The position numbers were made by a program, and so were the translations under genes. Source: Aequorivita vladivostokensis (GTDB lineage: Bacteria > Bacteroidota > Bacteroidia > Flavobacteriales > Flavobacteriaceae). Taken from it: DNA of 64,000 nt. How positions within the stretch are numbered: position 1 is the stretch's first letter; each line of letters opens with the position of its first letter. This document shows positions 9,732-46,836 of this stretch, piece after piece. The notes under the pieces are model-generated. The model was not told where the DNA came from. It did not search any database and saw only the letters and a program-made list of their open reading frames with translations. The stretch is taken from contig NZ_JSVU01000002.1 in assembly GCF_000952855.1 (NCBI RefSeq), positions 62,001 to 126,000 of the forward strand, read 5' to 3'.

Positions 9732-9759
9732 AGTCGGTAGTCCGTAGTCGGTAGTCGGT
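9732..9759. repeat. heptad array, AGTCGGT x4
   Basis: Four tandem 7-base units follow, three identical and one with a single change (AGTCCGT), 3 bases after the fumC stop codon. This is one of the family of 7-base-period intergenic arrays in the window. No reverse-complement partner array is present at this site. Confidence 0.85.
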
Positions 9760-9771
9760 AGATTTTTTAGG

Positions 9772-24607: not shown

Positions 24608-24658
24608 AGATTCAATTTTTGGCAAAAGTAGTGATTCTAAAATTTCAAATGGGTTTTT

Positions 24659-24722
24659 GGGTTGTTGGGTTATTGGGTTATTGGGTTATTGAGTTACTGA
24701 GTTACTGAGTTATTGAGTTACT
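24659..24722. repeat. octad array, GGGTTATT/GAGTTACT x8
   Basis: Eight consecutive 8-base units run without a break: one GGGTTGTT, three GGGTTATT and four of GAGTTACT or GAGTTATT type. The stepwise change of the unit suggests expansion by slippage after point mutation. Confidence 0.9.
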
Positions 24723-24735
24723 TAAAAGTTATTTC

Positions 24736-24788
24736 GATTTCGATTTCGATTTCGTATTTCGTATTTCGTATTTCGTATTTCGTATTTC
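24736..24788. repeat. GATTTC x3 then GTATTTC x5 array
   Basis: Three 6-base units GATTTC (24736-24753) pass into five 7-base units GTATTTC (24754-24788). The unit length itself changes by insertion of one base, and the 7-base form was then multiplied. Confidence 0.9.
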
Positions 24789-34765: not shown

Positions 34766-35287
34766 ATGAAAACTATTTGGACCATAGGCCATTCCACCCA
34801 TACCCTCGAAGAGTTTTTAATACTGTTGAATTCCTTCAATATTGAATTACTTGTGGATGTGCGCCATTATCCCGGTTCCCGAAAATTTCCGCAGTACAAT
34901 AAAGACAATTTGGAAACAACATTGCCCGACAACGGCATTGCATATACACATTTGGTAGATTTGGGCGGCCGCAGAAAACCAGAACCCAATTCCAAAAACA
35001 ATGCATGGCGGCTCGATTCTTTTAAAGGGTATGCAGATTATATGGAAACGGAACAGTTTCAGCATTCCTTAAAAATTCTAAAAGAGAACGCCTCAAAAAA
35101 ACGGACTGCTATAATGTGTGCAGAAGCTGTTTGGTGGAGTTGCCACCGCTCGCTTATAGCAGATATTCTAAAAGTGGAAGGTTGGACCGTTATGCACATT
35201 ATGGCGGAAAATAAAGCCACGGAACATCCCTATACCGCTCCCGCAAAAATAGTGGACGGAGAGTTGGATTATTCCAAAGAGACGTAA
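34766..35287 (+). CDS. DUF488 family protein
   Basis: The 173-residue protein has the DUF488 N-terminus (IWTIGHSTHTLEEF, then LLVDVRHYPGSRKFPQYNKDNL) and the conserved CAEAVWWSCHRSLIADIL segment (about 118-135) with two cysteines. The family function is not established; a DNA- or nucleotide-linked role has been suggested. The gene stop codon lies inside the first unit of a heptad array that follows it. Confidence 0.85.
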   Translation: MKTIWTIGHSTHTLEEFLILLNSFNIELLVDVRHYPGSRKFPQYNKDNLETTLPDNGIAYTHLVDLGGRRKPEPNSKNNAWRLDSFKGYADYMETEQFQHSLKILKENASKKRTAIMCAEAVWWSCHRSLIADILKVEGWTVMHIMAENKATEHPYTAPAKIVDGELDYSKET

Positions 35288-35452
35288 GACGGTAAGACGT
35301 AGGGTACAGGACCTAGGACAGTATGACGTAGGACATAAGACTATAAACTACTGTTCGTGTTGTAATTTTTAATAATTGATAGCTATGATTCACATAAGCC
35401 AACGTCTTACGTCAACCAGTCCTACGTCCTATGTCATTAAGTTCTAAGTCCA
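35281..35452. repeat. inverted pair of heptad arrays, GTAAGAC and GTCTTAC types
   Basis: The first array (35281-35342) has eight units such as GTAAGAC, CTAGGAC and GTAGGAC, mostly 7 and twice 8 bases long. The second (35403-35452) has units such as GTCTTAC, GTCCTAC and GTCCTAT, the reverse complement. A 60-base spacer separates them, so a long imperfect hairpin may form between the DUF488 and marR genes. Confidence 0.85.
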
Positions 35453-35471
35453 AAAAAATCACATAATATAC

Positions 35472-35502
35472 TATGCGTGCATAATAAAATTTCGTATCTT
35501 TG
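35472..35502 (+). promoter_or_regulatory. marR promoter with palindromic operator
   Basis: An exact -7 box TATCTTTG (35495-35502) lies 27 bases before the marR start. Just upstream is the perfect 12-base palindrome TATGCGTGCATA (35472-35483), at the -20 to -35 region where a bound repressor would block RNA polymerase. MarR proteins commonly repress their own promoter through such sites, so this is the likely operator. Confidence 0.6.
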
Positions 35503-35529
35503 GGATTCCACTTTTTTCAAATTCTTTTA

Positions 35530-35970
35530 ATGAAGGAAAAAACTATAGATTACATCTTGCGGTCCACTTGGATGAACGTTACAAAAATGTATAATGAAGA
35601 AGCCGGAAAAAAAGGAAGTACGATGGCAACGGGTTTTGCACTTATAAGCATCGATCCCGAAGAGGGAACCCCTTCAACCGCGCTGGGCCCTAAAATGGGA
35701 ATGGAAGCTACAAGCCTTTCCCGCACCTTGAAAACTATGGAAGAAAAAGGTTTGATAGAAAGAAGGCCCAACCCAGAGGACGGTCGCGGGGTGTTGATTC
35801 ATTTAACCGAATTTGGAAAAGAGATGCGGGAGTTTTCCAAACAAGTGGTTTTGGGTTTTGACGAAGCCGTACAAAAAAACGTATCGGCAGAAGAATTGCA
35901 AACCTTTCGGAAAGTGGCAAACACGATTAACGAGTTGATCAATTCAAAGAAAATATATAATTCAGAGTAG
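35530..35970 (+). CDS. MarR family transcription regulator of the beta-oxidation operon
   Basis: The ATG at 35530 gives a 146-residue MarR-type winged-helix protein. The recognition helix region is MEATSLSRTLKTMEEKGLIERRPNPEDGRG with the wing DGRGVLIHLT (about 67-103). A longer TTG-initiated form from 35500 would begin inside the -7 box and is rejected. It is the first gene before fadB-, fadA- and fadE-like genes, so the probable ligand is a fatty acid or acyl-CoA that relieves repression, by analogy with FadR-type control in other bacteria. Confidence 0.87.
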   Translation: MKEKTIDYILRSTWMNVTKMYNEEAGKKGSTMATGFALISIDPEEGTPSTALGPKMGMEATSLSRTLKTMEEKGLIERRPNPEDGRGVLIHLTEFGKEMREFSKQVVLGFDEAVQKNVSAEELQTFRKVANTINELINSKKIYNSE

Positions 35971-35987
35971 AGAAAATAACACTTCAG

Positions 35988-36086
35988 AATTAGGATTAGG
36001 AATTAGGAATTAGGAATTAGGAATTAGGAATTAGGAATTAGGAAAAATAGTTATTTCGAACTGACAAATAACTAATAACCAATAAC
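35988..36086. repeat. heptad array AATTAGG with NAATAAC array
   Basis: One AATTAGG, one shortened ATTAGG and six perfect AATTAGG units fill 35988-36042. After 23 bases three units AAATAAC, TAATAAC and CAATAAC follow (36066-36086). The second array is a weak reverse complement of the first. Both lie between marR and the fadB-like gene. Confidence 0.88.
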
Positions 36087-36097
36087 TTTAAAAAAAT

Positions 36098-38506
36098 ATG
36101 TCAAAAAGAAGAATTAACAAAGTAGCGGTAATCGGCTCCGGGATTATGGGTAGCGGCATAGCCTGCCATTTTGCCAACATCGGCGTGGAAGTGCTTTTGC
36201 TGGACATAGTACCGCGCGAGCTTACGGACGATGAAAAGAAAAAAGGCCTTACCCTTGAAGACAAGGCAGTCCGCAACCGAATTGTGAACAACGATTTGCA
36301 AAAAGCCATAAAAAGCAACCCCGCCCCACTCTATCACAAGGATTTTGCAAAGCGCATCTCCACGGGAAATTTGGAAGACGATATTTCAAAAGTAAAAACT
36401 GCCGATTGGATAATCGAAGTAGTCGTGGAGCGTCTCGACATTAAAAAACAGGTCTTTGAAAACCTGGCCAAGCACAGAAAAGAAGGCACGCTTATCACCA
36501 CAAACACCTCCGGGATTCCCATCCATTTGATGAGCGAGGGCCATAGTGAAGATTTTCAGAAACACTTCTGCGGCACGCACTTCTTCAATCCGCCGCGCTA
36601 TCTTAAACTTTTTGAAATCATTCCCGGGCCAAAAACCGCGCCCGAGGTAATCGACTTTTTAAGGGAATACGGCGAAAAATTCCTCGGAAAGACTTCCGTA
36701 GTCGCAAAAGATACGCCCGCATTTATAGGAAACAGAATCGGAATCTTCGGCATCCAAAGCCTTTTCCACCAAGTAAAGGAAATGGGCCTGACTGTTGAAG
36801 AAGTAGATAAACTTACCGGCCCGGTAATCGGCCGCCCAAAATCCGCAACCTTTAGGACCGTTGACGTTGTTGGTCTGGACACCTTGGTACACGTGGCCAA
36901 CGGAATTTACGAAAACGTGCCCGAGGACGAAGAGCACGAAACCTTCAAGCTGCCCAAGTTCGTCAACACTATGATGGAAAACAAATGGTTGGGAAGCAAG
37001 AGCGGACAAGGTTTTTATAAAAAGGTGAAAAATGACGATGGAAGTAGTGAAATCCTTTCGCTCGACCTCGATTCCATGGAATACCGAAAAAGCAAAAAAG
37101 CATCTTTCGGTACTTTGGAAAAGACCAAATCGGTCAATGTGGTAGCAGACCGTTTCCCGATTCTTATTGAAGGCGATGACAAAGCAGGCGAATTTTACCG
37201 AAAGAATTTCGGAGCGATGTTCGCATACGTTTCCAAAAGAATACCCGAAATAACCGACGAACTTTACAAAATTGATGACGCCATGAAGGCCGGTTTTGGT
37301 TGGGAAAATGGTCCGTTCGAAATTTGGGATGCCGTTGGCGTGAAAAAAGGAATTGAATTAATAAAAGATCTGGGAAAAGAACCCGCCCCGTGGGTAAATG
37401 AAATGCTCGAAAACGGCGTGGACAGTTTCTACGAAGTACGCGAGGGCAACACCTATTATTACAGCATTCCTGACAAGACCCATAAAAAAATACCCGGACA
37501 GGATGCCTTTATCATTTTGGACAACATCCGAAAGACCAAGGAAGTTTGGAGCAACAAAGATGTGGTTGTCGAAGATTTGGGCGATGGCATTTTGAACGTA
37601 GAATTCCGAAGCAAGATGAACAGCATCGGTGGCGACGTACTTGCTGGCGTCAATAAAGCGATAGATTTAGCAGAAGCCAGTTTTGACGGCTTGGTGATTG
37701 CCAATAACGGTAAAAACTTCTCGGTAGGCGCAAACGTAGGGATGATCTTTATGATGGCCGTAGAGCAGGAATACGAAGAATTGAATGCTGCCGTAAAATA
37801 TTTTCAGGACACCAGTATGCGCATTCGCTATTCCTCCATTCCCGTAATTGTAGCGCCCCACGGAATGACCTTGGGCGGCGGGTGTGAATTCACGCTTCAC
37901 GCAGACCGCGTGGTGGCGGCGGCCGAAAGTTATATTGGATTGGTGGAATTCGGCGTGGGGGTAATTCCCGGCGGCGGCGGTTCCAAGGAAATGGCGATGC
38001 GTGCCAGCGATACTTTTATGAAGGACGATGTGGAGCTGAACAGGCTTCAGGAATATTTCCTGACCATCGGAATGGCAAAAGTTTCCACCTCGGCCTATGA
38101 AGCCTTCGATACCGGAATCCTGCAGAAAGGAAAGGATATTGTAATCGTAAACCAAGATCGCCAGATTGCCGCAGCCAAAGCCGTTGCACGTTTTATGGCC
38201 GATCAGGGTTATACCAAACCAATTAGGCGCACCGATGTAAAAGTACTCGGAAAGCAGGCCTTGGGAATGTTCCTAGTGGGAACCGACCAAATGGTAGCCG
38301 GAAACTACATCAGCGAACACGATAAGAAAATAGCCAACAAACTCGCTTATGTTATGGCGGGAGGCGATTTGAGCGATGCAAGCTTCGTAAGCGAGCAATA
38401 TTTGCTTGACCTTGAAAGAGAAGCATTCCTAAGTTTAACAGGAGAACGGAAGACTTTGGAAAGACTTCAGCATATGATTCAGAAGGGGAAACCTTTGAGA
38501 AATTAG
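36098..38506 (+). CDS. bifunctional 3-hydroxyacyl-CoA dehydrogenase / enoyl-CoA hydratase
   Basis: This 802-residue enzyme carries out the hydration and NAD-dependent oxidation steps of beta-oxidation. The dehydrogenase comes first (NAD motif GSGIMGSGIACHFANIGVEV, about 12-31; then GTHFFNPPRYLKLFEIIPG), followed by a second dehydrogenase C-terminal domain (about 345-440) and the crotonase domain (about 490-720, GANVGMIF and GMTLGGGCEF). This order is that of FadN of Gram-positives rather than FadB of E. coli, where the hydratase is N-terminal. It is in the MarR-controlled operon. Confidence 0.94.
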   Translation: MSKRRINKVAVIGSGIMGSGIACHFANIGVEVLLLDIVPRELTDDEKKKGLTLEDKAVRNRIVNNDLQKAIKSNPAPLYHKDFAKRISTGNLEDDISKVKTADWIIEVVVERLDIKKQVFENLAKHRKEGTLITTNTSGIPIHLMSEGHSEDFQKHFCGTHFFNPPRYLKLFEIIPGPKTAPEVIDFLREYGEKFLGKTSVVAKDTPAFIGNRIGIFGIQSLFHQVKEMGLTVEEVDKLTGPVIGRPKSATFRTVDVVGLDTLVHVANGIYENVPEDEEHETFKLPKFVNTMMENKWLGSKSGQGFYKKVKNDDGSSEILSLDLDSMEYRKSKKASFGTLEKTKSVNVVADRFPILIEGDDKAGEFYRKNFGAMFAYVSKRIPEITDELYKIDDAMKAGFGWENGPFEIWDAVGVKKGIELIKDLGKEPAPWVNEMLENGVDSFYEVREGNTYYYSIPDKTHKKIPGQDAFIILDNIRKTKEVWSNKDVVVEDLGDGILNVEFRSKMNSIGGDVLAGVNKAIDLAEASFDGLVIANNGKNFSVGANVGMIFMMAVEQEYEELNAAVKYFQDTSMRIRYSSIPVIVAPHGMTLGGGCEFTLHADRVVAAAESYIGLVEFGVGVIPGGGGSKEMAMRASDTFMKDDVELNRLQEYFLTIGMAKVSTSAYEAFDTGILQKGKDIVIVNQDRQIAAAKAVARFMADQGYTKPIRRTDVKVLGKQALGMFLVGTDQMVAGNYISEHDKKIANKLAYVMAGGDLSDASFVSEQYLLDLEREAFLSLTGERKTLERLQHMIQKGKPLRN

Positions 38507-38565
38507 ATGTGAGATTTTAGACGTGAGACTTGAGACGTTAGACGTTAGACGTTAGACGTTAGAGG
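38505..38565. repeat. heptad array AGACGTT type, left of four-helix-bundle gene
   Basis: Eight perfect 7-base units run from AGATGTG to four identical AGACGTT, followed by AGAGG. The first unit shares its AG with the TAG stop codon of the preceding gene. The purine strand is the reverse complement type of the arrays at 38644 and 39066. Confidence 0.9.
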
Positions 38566-38643
38566 AAAATTGAATAATTGAAATTTTAAAATTGTGTTTT
38601 AAGTAATCTATATACGATTCCTTTTTTAAATCAAAAATAACCT

Positions 38644-38699
38644 CAAATCTTTTGTCTAAAATCTTAAGTCTCAAATCTCAAGTCTAACATCTAAAATCT
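38644..38699. repeat. heptad array NAARTCT x8, directly before four-helix-bundle gene
   Basis: Eight consecutive 7-base units ending in TCT (CAAATCT, TTTGTCT, AAAATCT, TAAGTCT and so on) end 6 bases before the ATG at 38706. They are reverse complementary in type to the array at 38505, from which a spacer of about 80 bases separates them. Confidence 0.9.
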
Positions 38700-38705
38700 A
38701 TAAAT

Positions 38706-39065
38706 ATGCACAACTTTCAAGAATTAAAAATTTGGCAAAAATCGATGGATATTACAGAACAGACATATCGACTTTCGGCCGAGTTTCCCAAAGAGGAAAA
38801 ATATGGCTTAACAAGCCAGATAAGAAGAAGTGCTGTTTCAATTCCTTCAAATATTGCAGAAGGAGCAGGAAGAAATACAGATGGAGAGTTTAAAAACTTT
38901 TTGGTTATTGCAAGCGGTTCTTCAAACGAACTTTTTACCCAACTAATTTTATCCCATCGGCTAGAATTAGTTTCAGAAAACAAAGTAAAACCTATTTTAA
39001 ATGAATTAATTGAGATACAGAAAATGAATTATGCCTTGATACTGAAATTTTCAAAGAAAATTTAA
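38706..39065 (+). CDS. four helix bundle protein (23S rRNA intervening-sequence type)
   Basis: This 119-residue protein has the family N-terminus FQELKIWQKSMDITEQTYRL, then the conserved block LTSQIRRSAVSIPSNIAEGAGR (about 39-60), and forms a four-helix bundle. Relatives are encoded inside intervening sequences of 23S rRNA in Leptospira and Coxiella; the Avd protein of diversity-generating retroelements has the same fold. Function is unknown. It splits the beta-oxidation operon between fadB- and fadA-like genes and is bracketed by arrays with a 7-base period on both sides, of which the right one touches its stop codon. This suggests insertion of a mobile unit. Confidence 0.9.
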   Translation: MHNFQELKIWQKSMDITEQTYRLSAEFPKEEKYGLTSQIRRSAVSIPSNIAEGAGRNTDGEFKNFLVIASGSSNELFTQLILSHRLELVSENKVKPILNELIEIQKMNYALILKFSKKI

Positions 39066-39100
39066 AAAGTCTAAAATCTCACGTCTAAAATCTAAAATCT
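39066..39100. repeat. heptad array NAARTCT x5, directly after four-helix-bundle gene
   Basis: Five 7-base units (AAAGTCT, AAAATCT, CACGTCT, AAAATCT, AAAATCT) begin at the first base after the stop codon and end 3 bases before the thiolase start. They are the same type and direction as the array at 38644, so the gene looks inserted within one array. Confidence 0.9.
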
Positions 39101-39103
39101 ATT

Positions 39104-40294
39104 ATGAGAACAGCATATATAGTAAAAGCATACCGAACCGCAGTGGGCAAAGCGCCTCGCGGAGTTTTCCGTTTTAAAAGACCGGATGAACTGGCCGCGG
39201 AAACCATTAAATATATAATGAACGAATTGCCGCAACTCGACAAAAAACGAATTGATGACGTAATCGTGGGTAATGCCATGCCCGAAGCCGAGCAAGGCCT
39301 CAATATGGGTAGATTGATCTCGTTAATGGGGTTGGATATAGTGGACATTCCCGGAATGACGGTTAACCGTTATTGCGCTTCTGGCCTGGAAACCATTTCA
39401 ATTGCTGCGGCCAAAATCCAAACGGGAATGGCAGATTGCATCATTGCAGGTGGTGCAGAAAGTATGAGTTACATCCCAATGGGTGGTTACAAACCTGTTC
39501 CAGATTATAAATTGGCAAAAGAAGGCCACGAAGATTATTACTGGAATATGGGATTGACTGCGGAAGCAGTTGCCAAAAAATACAAAGTTTCCCGTGAGGA
39601 CCAAGATGAGTTTGCTTACACAAGTCAAATGCGCGCATTAAAAGCGCAGGATGAAAATCGTTTTCAGGATCAAATAGTTCCCATTGAAGTAGAGCACACT
39701 TTCGTAAACGATTCAGGCAAAAAAGTAACTGAAAAATACACAGTTAATAAAGACGAAGGCCCACGAAAAGGAACAAACATTGAAGCGCTTTCTAAACTTC
39801 GCCCCGTTTTTGCCCAAGGCGGAAGCGTTACGGCTGGAAACTCATCGCAAATGAGCGATGGCGCTGCGTTTGCCGTTATTATGAGCGAAGAAATGGTAAA
39901 GGAACTCAACCTGGAACCTATTGCCAGATTGGTAAGCTTTGCTGCTGTTGGCGTGGAGCCAAGCATTATGGGAATTGGTCCGGTTTACGCTATTCCAAAG
40001 GCTTTAAAACAAGCAGGAATGAAGCAAGATCAAATGGAACTCATAGAATTAAACGAAGCTTTTGCCTCACAGTCGTTAGCAGTAATCCGCGAACTCGGAT
40101 TGGATAAGGAACGAGTAAACGTAAACGGCGGTGCCATTGCTTTGGGCCACCCACTGGGCTGTACCGGCGCAAAACTCTCCGTCCAACTTTTTGATGAAAT
40201 GCGCAAACGAAACCTCCAAGGAAAGTATGGAATGGTGACTATGTGCGTGGGGACTGGGCAAGGGGCTGCTGGGGTTTATGAATTCCTTAAATAG
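39104..40294 (+). CDS. fadA: acetyl-CoA C-acyltransferase (thiolase)
   Basis: This 396-residue enzyme cleaves 3-ketoacyl-CoA with CoA to acetyl-CoA and a shortened acyl-CoA. Catalytic residues are visible: Cys91 (NRYCASGLE), His349 (GHPLGCTGA) and Cys381 (MCVGTGQG). Its length is that of degradative thiolases. It is downstream of the fadB-like gene in the MarR operon, separated from it only by the four-helix-bundle unit, and is followed by a duplicated hairpin repeat. Confidence 0.95.
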
Positions 40295-40509
40295 ACATGA
40301 GACGGGAGATTTGAGACTATAGATAAGTAATTAAACAAATGCAAAAAGATGATTGGGATATCTCATGTCTCACATCTAATATCTAACATCTATAACACTT
40401 AAGTAGACATGAGACAGGAGATTTGAGACAATAGACAAGTAATTAAACAAATGCAAAAGGATGATTGGGATATCTCATGTCTCACATCTAATATCTAACA
40501 TCTATAACA
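40292..40509. repeat. 112-base tandem duplication of a heptad hairpin element
   Basis: Copy 1 (40292-40403) and copy 2 (40404-40509) differ at about four bases over 106. Each copy contains five purine-type heptads (AGACATG and so on), a spacer of about 30 bases and five pyrimidine-type heptads (GATATCT, CATGTCT, CACATCT, AATATCT, AACATCT), so each can fold as a hairpin. This is the gene-less form of the element at 38505-39100. Copy 1 begins at the TAG stop of fadA; copy 2 ends just before the acyl-CoA dehydrogenase start. Confidence 0.92.
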
Positions 40510-40511
40510 AT

Positions 40512-42320
40512 ATGGAAACTGAAACAAAAAATAACGAATTGCTTCGAGGAGGACAATTTCTCGTAAAGGAAACAAAAGCCGACGACGTCTTCACCCCTGA
40601 AGATTTTTCCGAAGAGCAAAAAATGATGCGCGATTCCGTGAAGGAATTTGTAGATCGTGAAATATGGCCGAAAAAAGAAGAATTTGAGCATAAAAACTAT
40701 GCGCTAACGGAGGAAATTATGCGTAAGGCCGGCGAAATGGGCTTGCTTGGTGTGGCAGTGCCCGAAGAATATGGCGGCCTTGGAATGGGCTTCGTTACCA
40801 CGATGCTTGTTTGTGACTACATATCCGGCGCAACGGGCTCTGTGGCTACGGCCTTTGGCGCGCATACTGGTATCGGTACGTTGCCCATTACACTTTACGG
40901 CACCGAGGAGCAAAAGAAAAAATACGTCCCAAAACTCGCCACGGGCGAATGGTTTGGCGCTTATGCCCTAACAGAACCGGGTGCGGGAAGTGATGCCAAT
41001 AGTGGTAAAACCAAAGCAGTACTTTCCGAAGACGGAAAATATTACAAAATCAGCGGGCAGAAAATGTGGATCTCAAATTCAGGTTTTTGTCATACCATGA
41101 TTGTTTTTGCACGAATTGAAGATGATAAATACATAACAGGCTTTATTGTTGAAAATGATCCCGAAAACGGAATCTCAATGGGCGAGGAAGAAAAGAAACT
41201 CGGAATCCACTCCTCCTCTACCCGTCAGGTTTTCTTCAGTGATACAAAAGTTCCTGTTGAAAATATGTTGGGCGAACGCGGTGAAGGGTTTAAAATTGCA
41301 ATGAACGCCCTGAACGTAGGGAGAATAAAACTTGCCGCGGCTAGTCTTGACGCACAACGCCGTGTAATAGCAAATGCTGTTCAGTACGCAAATGAGCGAA
41401 TTCAATTCAATGTGCCCATTTCATCTTTTGGGGCAATAAAACTGAAATTGGCCGAAATGGCAACCAGTGCGTATGTGGGTGAAAGTGCCAGTTACCGGGC
41501 CGGAAAGAATATTGAGGACCGAATCGCACTTCGCGTGAAAGCTGGCAACAGCCACCAAGAAGCTGAATTAAAAGGTGTAGAAGAATATGCCATTGAGTGT
41601 TCCATCCTGAAGGTTGCAGTTTCCGAAGACATTCAAAACTGTAGCGATGAAGGTATCCAGATTTACGGCGGAATGGGCTACAGCGCAGATACCCCAATGG
41701 AATCTGCCTGGCGCGATGCCCGTATTGCCCGTATTTACGAAGGAACAAATGAAATCAACCGTATGCTGGCAGTGGGAATGTTGGTGAAAAAAGCAATGAA
41801 AGGTCACGTAGATCTTCTGAACCCCGCACAGGCAGTAGCCGCAGAATTAATGGGAATCCCTTCTTTTGAAACGCCCGATTTTTCGGAATTGCTTTCAGAG
41901 GAAAAAGCGATGATCGCCAAACTGAAAAAAGTATTCTTAATGGTTGCCGGAAGCGCCGTTCAAAAATACGGCACTGAACTGGAGGAACATCAGCAAACGC
42001 TAATGGCAGCGGCAGATATTTTGATTGAAATTTATATGGCTGAAAGCGCAATCCTACGTACTGAAAAGAACGCGAAACGCTTCGGTGAGGATTCGCAAAA
42101 GGAACAAATTGCGATGTCGCAATTGTACCTTTACCACGCCGTTGATATAATTACCGTGAAAGCTAAGGAAGCCATTCTTTCTTTTGCTGAAGGGGATGAA
42201 CAACGGGCGATGCTGATGGGTCTTAAACGTTTTACGAAATATCAAAATATGCCAAACATTGGCGAATTGCGTAGAACAATTGCACATAAGGTTATTTCGG
42301 AAAACAATTATCCGTTTTAA
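40512..42320 (+). CDS. acyl-CoA dehydrogenase, VLCAD-like with C-terminal extension
   Basis: The ATG at 40512 gives 602 residues; a longer frame from 40461 would run through the repeat and is rejected. The enzyme performs the FAD-dependent first step of beta-oxidation. The core (about 30-420) has YALTEPGAGSDANSG, KMWISNSGF and the RIYEGTNEINR motif with the catalytic-region Glu. The additional C-terminal region of about 180 residues matches very-long-chain type dehydrogenases, as in human VLCAD. It is the last gene of the MarR-controlled operon and is closed by a terminator. Confidence 0.94.
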   Translation: METETKNNELLRGGQFLVKETKADDVFTPEDFSEEQKMMRDSVKEFVDREIWPKKEEFEHKNYALTEEIMRKAGEMGLLGVAVPEEYGGLGMGFVTTMLVCDYISGATGSVATAFGAHTGIGTLPITLYGTEEQKKKYVPKLATGEWFGAYALTEPGAGSDANSGKTKAVLSEDGKYYKISGQKMWISNSGFCHTMIVFARIEDDKYITGFIVENDPENGISMGEEEKKLGIHSSSTRQVFFSDTKVPVENMLGERGEGFKIAMNALNVGRIKLAAASLDAQRRVIANAVQYANERIQFNVPISSFGAIKLKLAEMATSAYVGESASYRAGKNIEDRIALRVKAGNSHQEAELKGVEEYAIECSILKVAVSEDIQNCSDEGIQIYGGMGYSADTPMESAWRDARIARIYEGTNEINRMLAVGMLVKKAMKGHVDLLNPAQAVAAELMGIPSFETPDFSELLSEEKAMIAKLKKVFLMVAGSAVQKYGTELEEHQQTLMAAADILIEIYMAESAILRTEKNAKRFGEDSQKEQIAMSQLYLYHAVDIITVKAKEAILSFAEGDEQRAMLMGLKRFTKYQNMPNIGELRRTIAHKVISENNYPF

Positions 42321-42341
42321 ATTAATTGATAAATTATTCTT

Positions 42342-42375
42342 AAAACCGCTTCAGAAATGAGGCGGTTTTATTTTT
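42342..42375 (+). terminator. terminator of the beta-oxidation operon
   Basis: The 12-base stem AAAACCGCTTCA/TGAGGCGGTTTT (one G-T pair) has a 4-base loop and is followed by a T-rich run. It lies 21 bases after the stop codon. Confidence 0.9.
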
Positions 42376-42423
42376 AGCAGTATTTTGGTTCGAAGTTTGC
42401 TATTTTTAAAAAAACAATTTATA

Positions 42424-43290
42424 ATGAAGAAGCTCCTTTTCCTATCAATCATATTCACTACTTATCTCACTTTCGCACAAACCAATACTGAAGTGTATGT
42501 TTTTGATATTCGTCCAGCTTATGAAGGGCTGGAATTGTTAAATATCCAAAACATTTCAAACAACAAAGGTTACAACAACCAACCTTCTTTCATCGCTAAT
42601 GAAACCCTTGTTTTTGCAGGAAACAATGAAGGTCAAACCGATATTGTAGAATATAGCCTGAATACCAAATCAAAAAAATGGTTCAATCAAAAAACCGATG
42701 GCGGCGAGTATTCTCCTCAAACATTTCCTACTATCAATGATGTTGCAGCCGTTCGACTTGACAAAAATGGTTTTCAAAGATTGTATAGGTATGATTCACA
42801 AACAGGAAAATCAACTGAATTAATCAAAGATTTACAAATAGCATATTTTGCTTTTTACAATGATGAAAAAATACTTGCAACAGTATTGGACAGCGACAAA
42901 ATGAATTTGGTGTTAATAGATTTGCAATCAAAAAAAACAGACACATTGTTTTATAATGCAGGACGTTCCCTTCAAAAAGTCCCAAAAACCAATTCAATGA
43001 GTTATTCCTTGATAAACGAGGAAGGAAATCTGGACCTTTACCTCTTGGATATGAATTCCTATGAAAACTTTTTCGTAACCCAATTGCCCATTGGCATTCA
43101 GGATTATGTTTGGATAAACGATACTCAAATTTTAGTTGGAAGCGGAAACAAACTCTATATGTACGATACGTTAGGTGAGTCGGAATGGACACGAGTTGCC
43201 TCCCTTGAGGATTATGGCTTAAAGAATATTACCCGTATGGCCATCAGCCCAAATGGCAAGAAGCTCGCTATAGTGACTGAATCTAAATAG
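42424..43290 (+). CDS. secreted TolB/PD40-like beta-propeller protein
   Basis: The ATG at 42424 gives 288 residues with signal peptide LLFLSIIFTTYLTFAQ. The mature chain has PD40/TolB-type strands (NKGYNNQPSFIANETLVFAGNNEGQTDIVEYSL, then ITRMAISPNGKKLAIVTE) and should form a small propeller. No catalytic domain follows, so it is a binding protein or an incomplete member of a family that often carries one. It stands directly before the M28 peptidase gene. Confidence 0.8.
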   Translation: MKKLLFLSIIFTTYLTFAQTNTEVYVFDIRPAYEGLELLNIQNISNNKGYNNQPSFIANETLVFAGNNEGQTDIVEYSLNTKSKKWFNQKTDGGEYSPQTFPTINDVAAVRLDKNGFQRLYRYDSQTGKSTELIKDLQIAYFAFYNDEKILATVLDSDKMNLVLIDLQSKKTDTLFYNAGRSLQKVPKTNSMSYSLINEEGNLDLYLLDMNSYENFFVTQLPIGIQDYVWINDTQILVGSGNKLYMYDTLGESEWTRVASLEDYGLKNITRMAISPNGKKLAIVTESK

Positions 43291-43367
43291 TTTCATTTTT
43301 ACATTCTCAAAAAGTTTTAGTAGGTTCTTCGTTCTTTTTGGTATTTTTAAACAAAATTACTTTCCCA

Positions 43368-44699
43368 ATGAAAAGTTTTGTTTCCTTCATTATAGTTTGT
43401 TTTACCTTTTCCTGTTTTTCACAGACCGATCAAAGAATTTACGACATAATAAACGCTGTTTCTTCTGAAAGGATTAAGGCAGATATCACCACGCTTGCAA
43501 ATTTCGGCACTCGAAATACTTTTAGTGATACAATTAGCAACACTCGCGGAATTGGTGCAGCAAGACGATGGATTAAAGGTGAATTTGAAGCTATTTCAAA
43601 AGATTGCAACAATTGCCTTGATGTCTTCTATCAAAAAGACTTTATAAAAGCCGAAGGGAACGACCGCGTTCCCCAAGATACTTGGATTGTAAACGTGGCT
43701 GCTGTTCAAAAAGGAACAAAATACCCCAACCGTTACATCATTATGAGTGGCGATATTGACTCCCGAAACAGCGACGGCAGCGATTTCACAAAAGATGCGC
43801 CCGGCGCCAACGACAACGCCAGCGGTATGGCCGGAGCTATTGAAGCCGTCCGTGTTCTTTCAAAACACAAGTTTGAAAGCAGTATTGTTTATTTAGGATT
43901 GAGCGGCGAAGAACAGGGGCTTTTCGGCGGAAAAGGCTTTGCAGAGTATGCAAAAGCACAAGGTTGGGAAATAATCGGCGTTTTAAATAACGATATGATC
44001 GGCAATATTGAAGGTGTAAATGGTGTAATCAGCAATCGCGATTTTAGGGTTTTCAGCGAGCCCGTTCCTCCCACCGAAACAGAACGCGAGCGACAAATGC
44101 GGCGCTTTTACGGTGGCGAGGTAGATGGTATTTCGCGCCAACTTGCCCGTTACGTTTTTAAGACTACGCAGACATATATGCCGGAAATGAACCCAATGAT
44201 GATTTATAGATTGGACCGTTTTGGTCGCGGCGGCCACCATCGTCCCTTTAACGATTTAGGCTGGGCCGGAATCCGTATTATGGAAGCCCACGAAAATTAC
44301 AATCAGCAGCACCAAGACATCCGCACTGAAAACGGAATAGAATACGGCGATAAACTGAAATTTGTAAACTTCGATTACGCCGCCAAGCTCACAGCCGTGA
44401 ACGCCATAAATCTGGCCAGTCTTGCGTGGGCGCCCCCTGCGCCAACAAACGTTGCCATTGGCGGCATTGTAGAGCCTTCCGCAAAGCTGAAATGGGATAA
44501 GGTAGATGGCGCAGTGGGTTATAAAATTTATTGGCGCGATACCACAAGTCCAACTTGGGACCACAGCCGATACGTAGGCGATGTTTCAGAATTTACCTTG
44601 GAAGGTATTGTGATTGACAACTATTTTTTCGGAGTAGCTTCCGTTGGAAAATATGGTTTTGAAAGCGTTGTTGTGTTTCCAAATTCAGTATTTAGATAG
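43368..44699 (+). CDS. secreted M28 family metallopeptidase
   Basis: The ATG at 43368 gives 443 residues with a signal peptide (FVSFIIVCFTFSCFSQ). The M28 zinc aminopeptidase core (about 95-340) shows metal-ligand regions GDIDSRNSDGSD, DAPGANDNASGMAG and LSGEEQGLFGG with the catalytic Glu pair. The C-terminal 85 residues (APPAPTNVAIGG and on) look like a fibronectin type III domain. It probably releases amino acids from extracellular peptides. A heptad array begins at the first base after its stop codon. Confidence 0.9.
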   Translation: MKSFVSFIIVCFTFSCFSQTDQRIYDIINAVSSERIKADITTLANFGTRNTFSDTISNTRGIGAARRWIKGEFEAISKDCNNCLDVFYQKDFIKAEGNDRVPQDTWIVNVAAVQKGTKYPNRYIIMSGDIDSRNSDGSDFTKDAPGANDNASGMAGAIEAVRVLSKHKFESSIVYLGLSGEEQGLFGGKGFAEYAKAQGWEIIGVLNNDMIGNIEGVNGVISNRDFRVFSEPVPPTETERERQMRRFYGGEVDGISRQLARYVFKTTQTYMPEMNPMMIYRLDRFGRGGHHRPFNDLGWAGIRIMEAHENYNQQHQDIRTENGIEYGDKLKFVNFDYAAKLTAVNAINLASLAWAPPAPTNVAIGGIVEPSAKLKWDKVDGAVGYKIYWRDTTSPTWDHSRYVGDVSEFTLEGIVIDNYFFGVASVGKYGFESVVVFPNSVFR

Positions 44700-44734
44700 A
44701 AATCTCAACAAGCAAATCTCAAATCACAAACCGT
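44700..44734. repeat. heptad array AAATCTC/AAATCAC x5, left of second four-helix-bundle gene
   Basis: Five 7-base units (AAATCTC, AACAAGC, AAATCTC, AAATCAC, AAACCGT) start at the first base after the M28 stop codon. Two of them are exact reverse complements of units in the array at 45136, on the other side of the gene. Confidence 0.85.
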
Positions 44735-44794
44735 AAAAAGGATTGAAAAAGTTTATTTATGGAAAAACCTTATGATTTGTAACTTAGAACCTTT

Positions 44795-45115
44795 TTGTTT
44801 GCAAAATCAGCTCGGAATTTAATCTATTCGCTTCAAAAAAGTATAGCAAACATTGAGGATGGCAAGCAGTTAATCCGGTCTTCAGGATCAGTTGCTGCCA
44901 ATTATATAGAATCCAATGAACATATAAGTGATAAAGATTTTGATTTTAGAATAAAAATATGCCGGAAGGAAGCAAAAGAATCGCTTCTTTGGTTAAAATT
45001 GTTACAAAATGAATTTAATAACCAACATTCTATTAAGTTGGTCGAATTAATAAATGAAGCGGATGAGTTAAAAAAGATTTTTTCCGCAATTGTAGAAAAA
45101 AGGAAATCAAGATAA
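44795..45115 (+). CDS. four helix bundle protein with N-terminus cut by stop codon (possible pseudogene)
   Basis: The 106 residues from TTG at 44795 contain the family block GKQLIRSSGSVAANYIESNEHISDKDFDFRIKICRKEAKES, typical of the second branch of 23S rRNA intervening-sequence-type proteins. The ancestral start is the ATG at 44759, in the same frame: it reads MEKPYDL, then TAA (44780-44782), then LRTFLFAKS. Family members read YDLEERTFxFA here from memory, so a conserved Glu codon has probably become TAA. The gene is either broken or restarted from TTG with about 12 residues lost. It is bracketed by reverse-complementary heptad arrays. Confidence 0.65.
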   Translation: MFAKSARNLIYSLQKSIANIEDGKQLIRSSGSVAANYIESNEHISDKDFDFRIKICRKEAKESLLWLKLLQNEFNNQHSIKLVELINEADELKKIFSAIVEKRKSR

Positions 45116-45135
45116 AAACAGGGATATCGTTATTC

Positions 45136-45192
45136 GTGATTTGAGATTTGTGATTTGTGATTTGTGTCCCGATAGCTATCGGGATGTGATTT
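45136..45192. repeat. heptad array GTGATTT type with inserted palindrome
   Basis: Four 7-base units (GTGATTT, GAGATTT, GTGATTT, GTGATTT) are followed by GTG, then by the palindrome at 45167-45184, then TGTGATTT. Units GTGATTT and GAGATTT are exact reverse complements of units in the array at 44700. The palindrome interrupts the run. Confidence 0.87.
45167..45184. repeat. palindrome TCCCGATAGCTATCGGGA inside heptad array
   Basis: A perfect 18-base palindrome lies within the GTGATTT array with GTG at both sides. It shares its TCCCGA ends with the palindrome in purL (29675) and resembles dispersed palindromes common in flavobacterial genomes. Confidence 0.85.
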
Positions 45193-45204
45193 AATAAAAT
45201 TATT

Positions 45205-46836
45205 ATGTTTAAAAAATTATTATTTATTTCAATCTGTTTTCTAGGGGTTACTTCAGTTTTTCCCCAAAAGAAGTTCACCCGCGCCGATACACTCATAGGA
45301 AGCATCACCCCCGAGCGTGCTTGGTGGGATGTTACCCATTACCATTTAAAGGTAAAGGTGAATCCCTCCGAAAAAACCATTGAGGGCAGCAATACCATTT
45401 CCTATAAAGTTTTGGAGCCAAAGGAGGTTATGCAGATTGACCTGCAAGCACCGATGAAGATTGATAAAATACTCCAAGACGGAAAAGAGATTTTTTATAC
45501 TTCCGAAGGAAATGCCCATTTTTTAAAACTTCAAAAAAAACAGAAAAAAGGGAAAGAAGAAAAAATAACGATTTATTTTTCTGGGAAACCTATAGAAGCC
45601 AAGCGCCCACCGTGGGACGGCGGTTTCACTTGGACCAAAGACAGCAATGGCAAGCCTTTTATTGCAACGAGCAACCAAGGAATCGGCTCCAGCGTTTGGT
45701 GGCCGTTGAAGGACCATCCTTCCGAAGAGCCCGATAATGGGGTTACCATTTCGGTAACAACTCCAAAGGATTTGATGGACATTAGCAACGGAAGATTAAT
45801 TAAAGTAATTGAAACCGATACTACAAAAACCTGGGTATGGCAAGTGGTAAACCCCATAAACGCTTATGGCGTGGACATCAATATTGGCGATTATGTACAT
45901 TGGGGCGAAAAGTACAAAGGCGAAAAAGGTCCGCTAGATATGGATTATTACGTACTTCGGGAAAATGAGGCGAAGGCGAAAGAGCAATTCAAACAGGCGC
46001 CGATGATGATGGAAGCTTTTGAGCACTGGTTTGGCCCCTATCCTTTTTACGAAGACGGCTACAAGCTGGTGGAAGCCCCATATTTGGGAATGGAGCACCA
46101 AAGCAGCGTGACTTACGGCAACAATTTTGAAAATGGCTATTTGGGCCGCGACCTCTCCGGCACGGGCTGGGGCCTGAAGTTCGATTTTATAATCATACAC
46201 GAAAGCGGGCACGAATGGTTTGCAAACAACATCACCAATAAGGATGTGGCCGATATGTGGATCCACGAAGGATTTACGGCCTATTCAGAAAATTTGTACC
46301 TGGATTATTTCTTCGGAAAAATAGCTTCCTCGGAGTATGTACTGGGTACCCGAAATAATATTTCAAACGATCGCCCAATCATCGGGGTTTACAATGTTGA
46401 CAATTCCGGCAGCGGTGATATGTACTACAAAGGCGCAAACATTCTGCATACCGTAAGGCAACTTATTGAAAATGACGAAAAATGGCGAAGTATCTTGCGT
46501 GGTTTGAATAAACAGTTCTACCACCAAACCGTTACTTCCAGGCAAATCGAGGAATATATTTCAAAAGAAAGCGGTATTGATCTCACAGCATTTTGGAACC
46601 AATATTTACGGACAACTAAAATTCCAAAAGTGGAATACAGTATTAAAGGAAATGATTTAAAATTTCGGTACGCCAACACAGTTGAAAATTTCGACGTGCC
46701 CGTAATAGCGATAGTCAACGACAAAGAGGAATGGATTTTTCCCACTTCGGAATGGAAAACGAAAACATTTGCGCAACCTATTGAAACCTTTCAAATCAAA
46801 AAAGATTTTTATGTAAATTCTGAAAATCTTAAATAA
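45205..46836 (+). CDS. secreted M1 family metallopeptidase
   Basis: The 543-residue protein has a signal peptide (LLFISICFLGVTSVFPQ) and an M1 aminopeptidase core. The zinc site is HESGH (His332, Glu333, His336) with Glu355 in WIHEGF, spaced as in the family; the substrate motif before it is LGMEHQSSVTYGN, a variant of GxMEN in which the Asn is replaced by His. This variation is usual in the secreted Bacteroidota branch. It removes N-terminal residues from peptides, probably in the periplasm. Confidence 0.93.
   Translation: MFKKLLFISICFLGVTSVFPQKKFTRADTLIGSITPERAWWDVTHYHLKVKVNPSEKTIEGSNTISYKVLEPKEVMQIDLQAPMKIDKILQDGKEIFYTSEGNAHFLKLQKKQKKGKEEKITIYFSGKPIEAKRPPWDGGFTWTKDSNGKPFIATSNQGIGSSVWWPLKDHPSEEPDNGVTISVTTPKDLMDISNGRLIKVIETDTTKTWVWQVVNPINAYGVDINIGDYVHWGEKYKGEKGPLDMDYYVLRENEAKAKEQFKQAPMMMEAFEHWFGPYPFYEDGYKLVEAPYLGMEHQSSVTYGNNFENGYLGRDLSGTGWGLKFDFIIIHESGHEWFANNITNKDVADMWIHEGFTAYSENLYLDYFFGKIASSEYVLGTRNNISNDRPIIGVYNVDNSGSGDMYYKGANILHTVRQLIENDEKWRSILRGLNKQFYHQTVTSRQIEEYISKESGIDLTAFWNQYLRTTKIPKVEYSIKGNDLKFRYANTVENFDVPVIAIVNDKEEWIFPTSEWKTKTFAQPIETFQIKKDFYVNSENLK

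Follow-up and report, generated by a model that had tools for sequence, protein, structure and literature searches.

An S23 gene between heptad inverted repeats at the fadB/fadA junction of Aequorivita vladivostokensis: a probable intervening-sequence-like cassette in operon mRNA

In the beta-oxidation operon of Aequorivita vladivostokensis (genome of 3.27 Mb; G000 among the congeneric genomes, which are numbered G here), the genes fadB and fadA are separated by a small gene of the S23 family, i.e., the four-helix-bundle proteins known from intervening sequences (IVSs) of 23S rRNA. The stretch of DNA analyzed, referred to below as the window, comprises 64,000 nucleotides (bases 62001-126000 of contig NZ_JSVU01000002.1); gene calls throughout were made by a simple open reading frame (ORF) rule. 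The S23 gene is accompanied by three arrays of heptad units (Table 1). An original prediction, made from the letters of the window alone, had described the order of these arrays, their unit counts (8, 8 and 5), the spacer of about 80 bases and the array ends relative to the ATG, the stop codon and the thiolase start, and all of this agrees with the sequence. The neighbouring genes are FadB-like and thiolase genes by domain match, so the S23 gene does split two genes of one pathway, as had been stated. Absent from the earlier account is the complementarity of the purine-type array to both pyrimidine-type arrays (inverted-repeat scores of 49 with the first and 47 with the second), which makes the arrays the arms of an inverted repeat.

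Table 1. Features of the fadB/fadA region and the second S23-type frame of the window (window positions)
Feature	Positions	Strand	Basis or remark
fadB-like gene, upstream, host operon	36098..38506	+	3HCDH and crotonase domains
5' arm, purine-type heptad array, 8 strict TNAGACN units	38505..38563	+	starts at the fadB stop codon
AT-rich spacer, 80 nt	38564..38643	+	loop of the smaller hairpin
3' arm 1, pyrimidine-type heptad array, 8 NNNRTCT units	38644..38699	+	ends 6 bases before the ATG
S23 / 23S-rRNA-IVS-type (four helix bundle family) gene, 119 aa	38706..39065	+	profile matches
3' arm 2, pyrimidine-type heptad array, 5 NNNRTCT units	39066..39100	+	from the first base after the stop codon to 3 bases before the fadA ATG
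fadA-like thiolase gene, downstream, host operon	39104..40294	+	domain match
Gene-less hairpin element, two 112-bp tandem copies, fadA/acyl-CoA dehydrogenase junction	40292..40509	+	
Acyl-CoA dehydrogenase gene, host operon	40515..42320	+	domain match
Second, divergent PF05635 frame	44783..45115	+	arm score 34; whole open frame, start codon not settled

The duplex energies of the purine array with the two pyrimidine arrays are -46.2 and -36.6 kcal/mol (values without shuffled control), and the stretch 38504-38705 folds with -53.4 kcal/mol. As the purine array pairs with either pyrimidine array, the S23 gene can lie in the loop of a hairpin or follow the smaller hairpin. With the stricter unit RTCTNAN the three arrays count 8, 6 and 4 units; when the window was resampled 20 times under a first-order Markov model, a mean of 0.0 runs of at least three units was obtained. 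The three-unit pattern is found 106 times in the window's genome versus 2 times for the backward-read pattern, although in some congeners this backward control is as common or commoner (3 versus 22 in G002). The three genomes with RTCTNAN arms at their fadB/fadA S23 gene rank 1, 2 and 6 of 28 for RTCTNAN matches (165, 106 and 48; a comparison picked post hoc).

The S23 protein matches PF05635 (E 1.3e-39, 135.1 bits; curated cut-off 33.8) and TIGR02436 (E 3.5e-37, 127 bits; cut-off 24), which bears out its earlier assignment to the family of the 23S rRNA IVSs. Among the best 80 of 586 places confirmed in a scan of other genomes (see below), the nearest named match is the protein of Aequorivita antarctica, which is identical to that of G004. 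Solved relatives found by sequence match are 2gsc (XCC0516; E 1.6e-22) and 2rld (E 3.8e-5); XCC0516 is reported to form a homopentamer of four-helix bundles (PMC4990558). The S23 family is related to Avd (PMC10053308), and the window protein resembles it below cut-off (NCBIfam Avd model, E 1.1e-5; Pfam bAvd, 6.9e-4). Judged from this kinship, binding of nucleic acids is plausible for S23 proteins, whose function in rRNA inserts was given as not known as of 2016 (PMC4990558). In a search of the cassette gene against Pfam and NCBIfam, only S23- and Avd-type models were matched, and no HUH tyrosine transposase. In 15 pairs of S23 genes from fadB/fadA junctions the first and second codon positions are 85-100% identical and the third positions 52-94%; this likeness at first and second positions suggests that the protein is probably under selection.

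Matching arms are a general feature of S23 genes. The repeat units vary from locus to locus, yet the upstream flank is mirrored as its reverse complement past the stop codon. Five congeneric genomes were used for the analysis of arms, i.e., G000 (11 PF05635 matches) and the single-contig assemblies G001, G002, G016 and G017, which together have 51 PF05635 matches. Forty-seven of the latter were taken and 37 were intact (4 fragments and 10 decayed or partial genes were left out of the arm scores, and the 31 matches of G004 and G021 out of the arm analysis). The arm score was defined as the inverted-repeat match between the 150 nt upstream and the 150 nt downstream of a gene. A score of at least 30 was reached by 29/48 intact S23 genes versus 4/267 other genes of the same stretches (Fisher 4e-24), and by 32/2256 pairs of arms taken from different loci. 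Outside the genus, 84,980 species genomes were scanned with the window protein as a seed, and the best 80 of 586 confirmed places were used, a small cross-phylum set biased to relatives of the window protein; one locus was dropped for too short a flank. Here, 43 of the 79 usable S23 loci scored at least 30 versus 13/247 other genes (1e-20) and 5.7% of 6162 cross pairs. Much of the evidence presented here comes from one genus.

With operonic, size-matched control genes and clipped spacers, scores of at least 22 were found for 24/28 and 47/55 S23 genes versus 2/14 and 9/22 controls. In the second control set, 8 of the 9 positive controls turned out to be unlisted S23 genes, and only 1/13 controls without S23-like genes was positive; these eight genes work as an unplanned blind test. 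At the four junctions studied, 39/42 intact S23 cassettes scored at least 22 and 25/42 at least 30. In each of four sets, arms of the same locus beat permuted partners (0/2000 permutations as good). This was the case for the 22 fadB/fadA loci of other genera (mean of 31.4 within and 21.4 across loci; 0/2000) as well as for 15 loci whose records bear titles other than Bacteroidota (Clostridia, Ignavibacteriae, SAR324, Thiohalocapsa and others, one named just 'bacterium'), where the own partner fits better than permuted partners (0/2000). That each arm matches its own partner across the 22 fadB/fadA loci amounts to co-variation, which requires that pairing is selected for or that one arm has been copied from the other. 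The second, divergent PF05635 frame of the window, for which no ATG-started frame of 80 codons was listed, has a pyrimidine-type arm upstream (near 44700) and an ATTTGTG arm downstream (45132-45166 within the arm region 45130-45166); with its score of 34 it ranks first of 48 in row and column.

The original prediction had proposed a genome-wide test of whether genes of this family lie within heptad arrays more often than other genes. For matching arms this is so, far above other genes, but the particular heptad family of the window stands beside only one of the 11 S23 genes of its genome. Strict RTCTNAN arrays are not a common mark of S23 genes in this genome (1/11 within 500 nt, one more about 1 kb off); around the remaining S23 genes the flanks are built of other units. 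Period 7 characterizes the arrays in general and not S23 genes alone, as in the other taxa it was found in 19/19 strong S23 flanks and also in 35/37 strong control flanks, some of which are flanks of S23 genes as well. Lag scores, by which periodicity was tested, were a weak discriminator: a flank with at least 18 was found in the genus for 21/48 S23 and 41/267 control genes, and at least 20 was reached in the other taxa by 13/79 S23 loci and 26/247 control genes. Extra stop codons in the arms were tried as a reason for period 7 and discarded (7.78 observed versus 7.50 in shuffled arms).

The arms have a preferred strand. A G-rich 5' arm with a C-rich 3' arm is found at 34/48 S23 genes of the genus (opposite, 3) and at 48/79 in other taxa (opposite, 4), whereas 39/267 control genes show this arrangement and 64/267 the opposite one. 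Furthermore, S23 genes, decayed ones included, are co-directional with both neighbours in 43/46 cases versus 138/201 for other genes (Fisher 3e-4). RNA has a reason for such a bias, while a symmetrical inverted repeat of DNA has none.

The distribution of S23 genes over the junctions of this genus is patchy. At fadB/fadA, where the original prediction had called for a comparison of relatives, S23 is present in 13/26 congeners (8 of the window's lineage, 4 of another, 1 decayed), and the other 13/26 have gene-less spacers of four sequence types. At fadA/acyl-CoA dehydrogenase, 15 of 27 congeners carry S23 sequence (11 open for at least 100 codons), 5 have a spacer of 21-29 nt and 7 a longer gene-less one; at paaA/paaB, S23 was found in 8 of 28 (7 open), a 10-nt spacer in 3, gene-less spacers in 16 and something else in 1; at paaB/paaC, S23 is present in 14/27 (12 open; hand tallies for these three junctions). 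The unit is thus found at several sites, and sites occur with and without it, as with transposable elements. The content of the fadB/fadA junction does not follow the fadB+fadA tree: its states need 18 changes (shuffled mean 16.3; 200/200 shuffles as low), and S23 presence alone needs 10. Indeed, well-supported neighbours on this tree differ at the junction, as do G000 (S23) and G012 (a different, gene-less hairpin) or G017 and G010, and the well-supported neighbours G015 and G023 have two different S23 lineages there. A C-rich-first hairpin (GCCCCTCCC...GGGGAGG) is found at fadB/fadA of G012, G014, G020 and G040, species that are not grouped on the fad tree (4 changes). At paaB/paaC of G000, G009, G022 and G042, the gene-less spacers (596, 606, 422 and 219 nt) start with CCCGCGAAGGCGGGAA-type palindromes.

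These distributions bear on an alternative in which the S23 gene is a normal part of the beta-oxidation operon that is passed on vertically (e.g., the gene for a regulator of it) and the arrays are unrelated genomic litter. The conservation of the protein at first and second codon positions would fit it. So would a clade of 48 S23 proteins (95% SH-aLRT) that holds 28 fadB/fadA copies from several Bacteroidota families, and the other-taxon loci, of which 22/79 lie at fadB/fadA and 11/79 at fadA/acyl-CoA dehydrogenase (counts from the best 80 of 586 places of a scan seeded with the window protein, hence biased). However, the absence of S23 from fadB/fadA in half of the congeners, the different lineages at one site, a junction content that does not follow the flanking genes, and the recurrence of this architecture in further phyla and at junctions unrelated to this one are hard to reconcile with vertical inheritance. 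We regard this explanation as improbable; for the genus it is already largely ruled out, though a role of the protein in the operon could exist.

Cassettes of different species may be far more alike than the genes around them. The S23 cassettes of G016 and G015 at fadB/fadA are 96% identical overall and 94% at third positions, versus 50% for fadB and 61% for fadA at third positions. For those of G017 and G041 the values are 87% versus 60 and 65%, and the gene-less spacers of G018 and G009 are 99% identical (flanks 83%). At the third positions S23 exceeds both flanking genes in 13/15 pairs. The same was found at other junctions: G003 and G041 share 96% at fadA/acyl-CoA dehydrogenase versus 55 and 55% at third positions of the flanks, and G018 and G016 share 96% at paaB/paaC versus 52% in paaC (the figures for the paaB side are unreliable, as the compared stretch exceeds the length of paaB). 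Away from the spacer, the likeness fades over a distance of about 60 nt in the pair G016-G015 and of about 180 nt in G018-G009. The two versions of the fadA start (MKQ versus MKT/MRT) track the type of the upstream spacer in 25/26 genomes (hand count; the exception is G039), so exchange may include the first codons.

Alternatively, the spacers might be hairpins for mRNA stability or attenuation under host selection, whose alleles are swapped by homologous recombination via the conserved ends of fadB and fadA, with S23 riding along without being mobile itself. The linkage of fadA start and spacer type agrees with this, as does the identity of G018 and G009 that extends into fadA (100% in the first 60 nt, 97% in the next 60, then 87 and 75%) and that of G017 and G041 (93% on both sides). 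Moreover, 30/43 gene-less spacers are better hairpins than their shuffles (at most 2/40 as good), and the RNA fold z-scores of those at fadB/fadA range from -0.8 to -4.4 (-2 or lower in 7/13). On the other hand, the last 60 nt of fadB and the first 60 nt of fadA are 87 and 83% identical between G016 and G015, whose cassettes share 96%, and beyond about 30 nt from the spacer genomes of the same type are hardly more alike than others (differences up to 0.025, all pairs). Finding a gene together with arms of the same family at different junctions needs more than allele swapping. We consider host hairpins with swapped alleles a possible explanation, albeit one that we entertain with some doubt.

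Indeed, a quick S23 tree (118 columns; 50/115 inner branches open) points to moves between junctions. Eight paaA/paaB rows (two of them identical, perhaps from one organism) form one group nested among fadB/fadA copies (98% SH-aLRT) and have like arms, and another lineage occupies both fadB/fadA and fadA/acyl-CoA dehydrogenase. S23 genes that stand at different junctions and have at least 60% protein identity reach a mean arm score of 54.5 (77 pairs, not independent) versus 26.7-31.0 for others. Many gene-less spacers share arms with S23 cassettes: 33/43 match the S23 arms of a different junction more closely than a 99.5% null drawn for each comparison (mononucleotide shuffles, without correction for taking the best among several tens), and 23/43 have a score of at least 59 (hand count). 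The gene-less hairpin at 40292, each copy of which is a hairpin of purine array, spacer and pyrimidine array, and the arms of the window S23 gene are one family. The original prediction had pictured a gene unit placed inside an array of the 40292 kind. The kinship stands, as the arms of this element match the S23 arms of the neighbouring junction and its own junction holds S23 sequence in 15/27 congeners, but the arrays are inverted-repeat arms and not one array into which a gene was put. Two processes seem to be needed, namely homologous exchange of short tracts within one junction and, more rarely, true moves from one junction to another.

Another unrelated protein occurs in the same niche. 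One control gene within matching arms (L086:5394-5795, G017) encodes a PDDEXK_3 (GxxExxY) protein. A search of seven genomes gave 25 PDDEXK_3 matches in six of them, and after 7 broken or partial ones had been dropped, the arms of the 18 intact genes scored at least 22 in 16/18 and at least 30 in 10/18 cases (cross pairs, 21% and 7.5%; the high cross rate is due to arm families shared among these genes). At the junction that follows a gene for a 301-aa protein, which we take to be cysD/cysN, G000 and G017 carry a PDDEXK_3 gene where G001 and G016 have an S23 gene, and the gene downstream is the same; PDDEXK_3 and S23 are thus alternative occupants of one junction.

This raises the question of whether the cassettes are mobile elements of DNA, with the arms as terminal inverted repeats, the gene-less copies as miniature inverted-repeat transposable elements (MITEs), and a transposase or nuclease acting in trans, possibly the hairpin-borne PDDEXK_3 protein itself. 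The inverted arrangement of the arms, their sharing by gene-less spacers and S23 cassettes elsewhere, the spacers of just 21-29 and 10 nt in other species and the alternation of PDDEXK_3 with S23 in like arms speak for such an element. But the arm families differ between S23 lineages, a consistent G-rich 5' arm and sense orientation would be unexpected of DNA ends, and no target duplication was noticed when short and filled spacers were compared by eye, without systematic search. In addition, G001 possesses S23 genes and had no PDDEXK_3 match at E 1e-5. A DNA element of this kind appears unlikely to us. Retro-mobility with a reverse transcriptase in trans would be the analogous proposal by the example of Avd in diversity-generating retroelements; the kinship of S23 with Avd (model matches below cut-off; PMC10053308) and the sense orientation, which fits an RNA intermediate, could be cited in its favour. 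Yet RVT_1 was found in 9/28 congeners and not in G000 (E 0.001), G016 and G017 despite their 11, 13 and 17 PF05635 matches. A reverse transcriptase in trans is therefore not supported by the distribution of RVT_1, and we regard retro-mobility as very improbable.

In our opinion, the feature is likely to be an IVS-like S23 cassette in mRNA, i.e., an S23 gene between long inverted-repeat arms of 7- to 8-nt units, co-directional between fadB and fadA, and cassettes with or without the gene would be discrete, horizontally exchanged units, many gene-less hairpins being shortened or empty relatives of S23 cassettes. Anatomically, nothing considered here comes closer than the 23S rRNA IVS with an S23 ORF (Coxiella, Leptospira), and we propose that the operon copies work alike. 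In the Coxiella IVS, terminal inverted repeats (28-bp stem) enclose the S23 ORF in their loop, excision is by RNase III, and tandem heptamers of varying number stand directly before the S23 start (PMC4990558). By this analogy, the arms would pair in the polycistronic operon mRNA, a double-strand-specific RNase (RNase III, as in the rRNA IVSs) would cut the stem, and the fadB and fadA messages would be separated by that cut, so that the insert would be tolerated; excision by RNase III is established for the rRNA IVS (PMC4990558), whereas for the mRNA cassette it is what we infer. The S23 protein may bind cassette RNA or DNA and help to keep or spread the unit. Cassettes would be swapped between species at the same junction and occasionally reach another junction, arms and gene together. 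Unlike the ribosomal IVS, the window cassette lies not inside a 23S rRNA gene but in operon mRNA, its arms are themselves heptad arrays, it has dispersed gene-less relatives, and its protein is conserved, whereas the Coxiella S23 ORF is described as decaying, its product probably not being formed (PMC4990558).

Several observations weigh against this IVS-like interpretation. Arm scores below 30 were found for 19/48 S23 genes of the genus and 36/79 of other taxa, with clear failures at G016:2968456 (score 4; the repeats there are direct) and G002:517279 (score 17). For the window gene a score of 16 is obtained when 150-nt flanks are used, since its 5' arm is located farther upstream. RNA duplex energy separates S23 genes less well than the DNA inverted-repeat score by which it was replaced (median -54.1 for S23, -39.0 for cross pairs and -36.1 for controls, a real but weak difference; own partner first in row for 11/48), and 13/43 gene-less spacers are no better hairpins than shuffles (more than 2/40 as good). 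The spacer exceeds both flanks by more than 5 points in only 8/53 same-type fadB/fadA pairs, three of the eight with S23, and codon bias might raise the third-position identity of S23. Short-tract homologous recombination could explain the exchange at the same site. The highest identity between S23 proteins within a genome is 75% (70 collected), i.e., no recent transposition is seen, and the 28 of 48 clade members at fadB/fadA suggest long residence or a host role. A transposase was not seen in the cassette, and trans-acting enzymes were searched for as RVT_1 and PDDEXK_3 only. The earlier proposal of a non-autonomous mobile element thus holds as far as patchy, discrete units across species and junctions are concerned, but recent transposition was not seen, a mobility enzyme was not found, and part of the pattern could be homologous exchange. 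As a whole, the interpretation given in the original prediction is supported.

S23 genes sandwiched between other genes have been reported before. In cas operons (cmr3-S23-cmr2), 23S_rRNA_IVP genes were read as having an associated function (PMC3936711), and in bacteria of the candidate phyla radiation (CPR) such genes are scattered over rRNA insertion sites and were read as insert-encoded ORFs, the sites having inserts with and without an ORF (the latter said of other ORF families; PMC11270868). Flanking arms are not mentioned in the available parts of these two publications. In Flavobacterium columnare, an S23 gene listed as a phage element stands between the genes for guanylate kinase and a NadD-type protein with gaps of about 35 nt (gmk-S23-nadD; PMC5524665), a position that fits the cassette pattern. 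S23 genes in operons within heptad inverted repeats were not met in the literature searched, which did not extend to preprints and most subscription journals. Comparable intergenic heptad arrays are the heptanucleotide repeats of cyanobacteria. TAACTGA heptamers form short intergenic sets, often just before start codons, in Beggiatoaceae, Cyanobacteria and some Bacteroidetes (PMC4679880); they are direct repeats of one fixed unit, whereas S23 cassettes have locus-specific units in inverted arms, with or without S23. The terms S23, helix bundle and intervening sequence do not occur in the text of that publication.

If S23 genes are generally hairpin-nested, exchanged operon cassettes, then genes for a 'four helix bundle protein' between cas, fad, paa or other genes should not be taken as parts of these pathways without more evidence. 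The function of S23 would become testable (does the protein bind or act on its own hairpin?), a partner protein would be at hand for some of the numerous heptad arrays of flavobacterial spacers, and the cassettes would be a natural system for studying how operon junctions are rewired.

The combination of a gene in inverted repeats with gene-less hairpins elsewhere recalls the REP/RAYT system (REPtron), in which the gene for RAYT, an HUH tyrosine transposase, is flanked by inverted hairpin repeats and many gene-less hairpin copies lie between genes. S23 differs from it as a four-helix-bundle family without known catalysis, with arrays of 7-8 nt units and an arm family that varies by lineage. 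The Avd/bAvd system of diversity-generating retroelements, the homologous family, is likewise linked to nucleic-acid hairpins; it differs in that the window's genome has no RVT_1 match and the Avd models stay below cut-off for S23. Tentatively, one may speculate that S23 proteins together with inverted arms of short units make up a class of elements similar to REP/RAYT, but without a transposase at its base. Every lineage of S23 would have its own arm family, seed gene-less hairpins of this family across operon junctions, and exist chiefly at the level of RNA (sense-only, G-rich 5' arm). The rRNA IVS would be the ribosomal branch, and PDDEXK_3 / GxxExxY, an unrelated protein family, would share the hairpin niche. 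The long-sought role of S23 would in that case be the binding of its own hairpin.

Minor observations concern the surroundings of the locus. Rfam gave no family at gathering thresholds in 35000-46000. In a pattern scan of 38400-40600, the 7 promoter-like sites were not clearly above the chance mean of 4.9, and 5 terminator-like sites (chance mean 2.0) are all on the minus strand. Further heptad or octad arrays of the window (GAATTAG, TGGGTTAT, TATTTCG, AGTCGGT) are located at 35987-36044, 24650-24788 and 9732-9761, away from both PF05635 frames.

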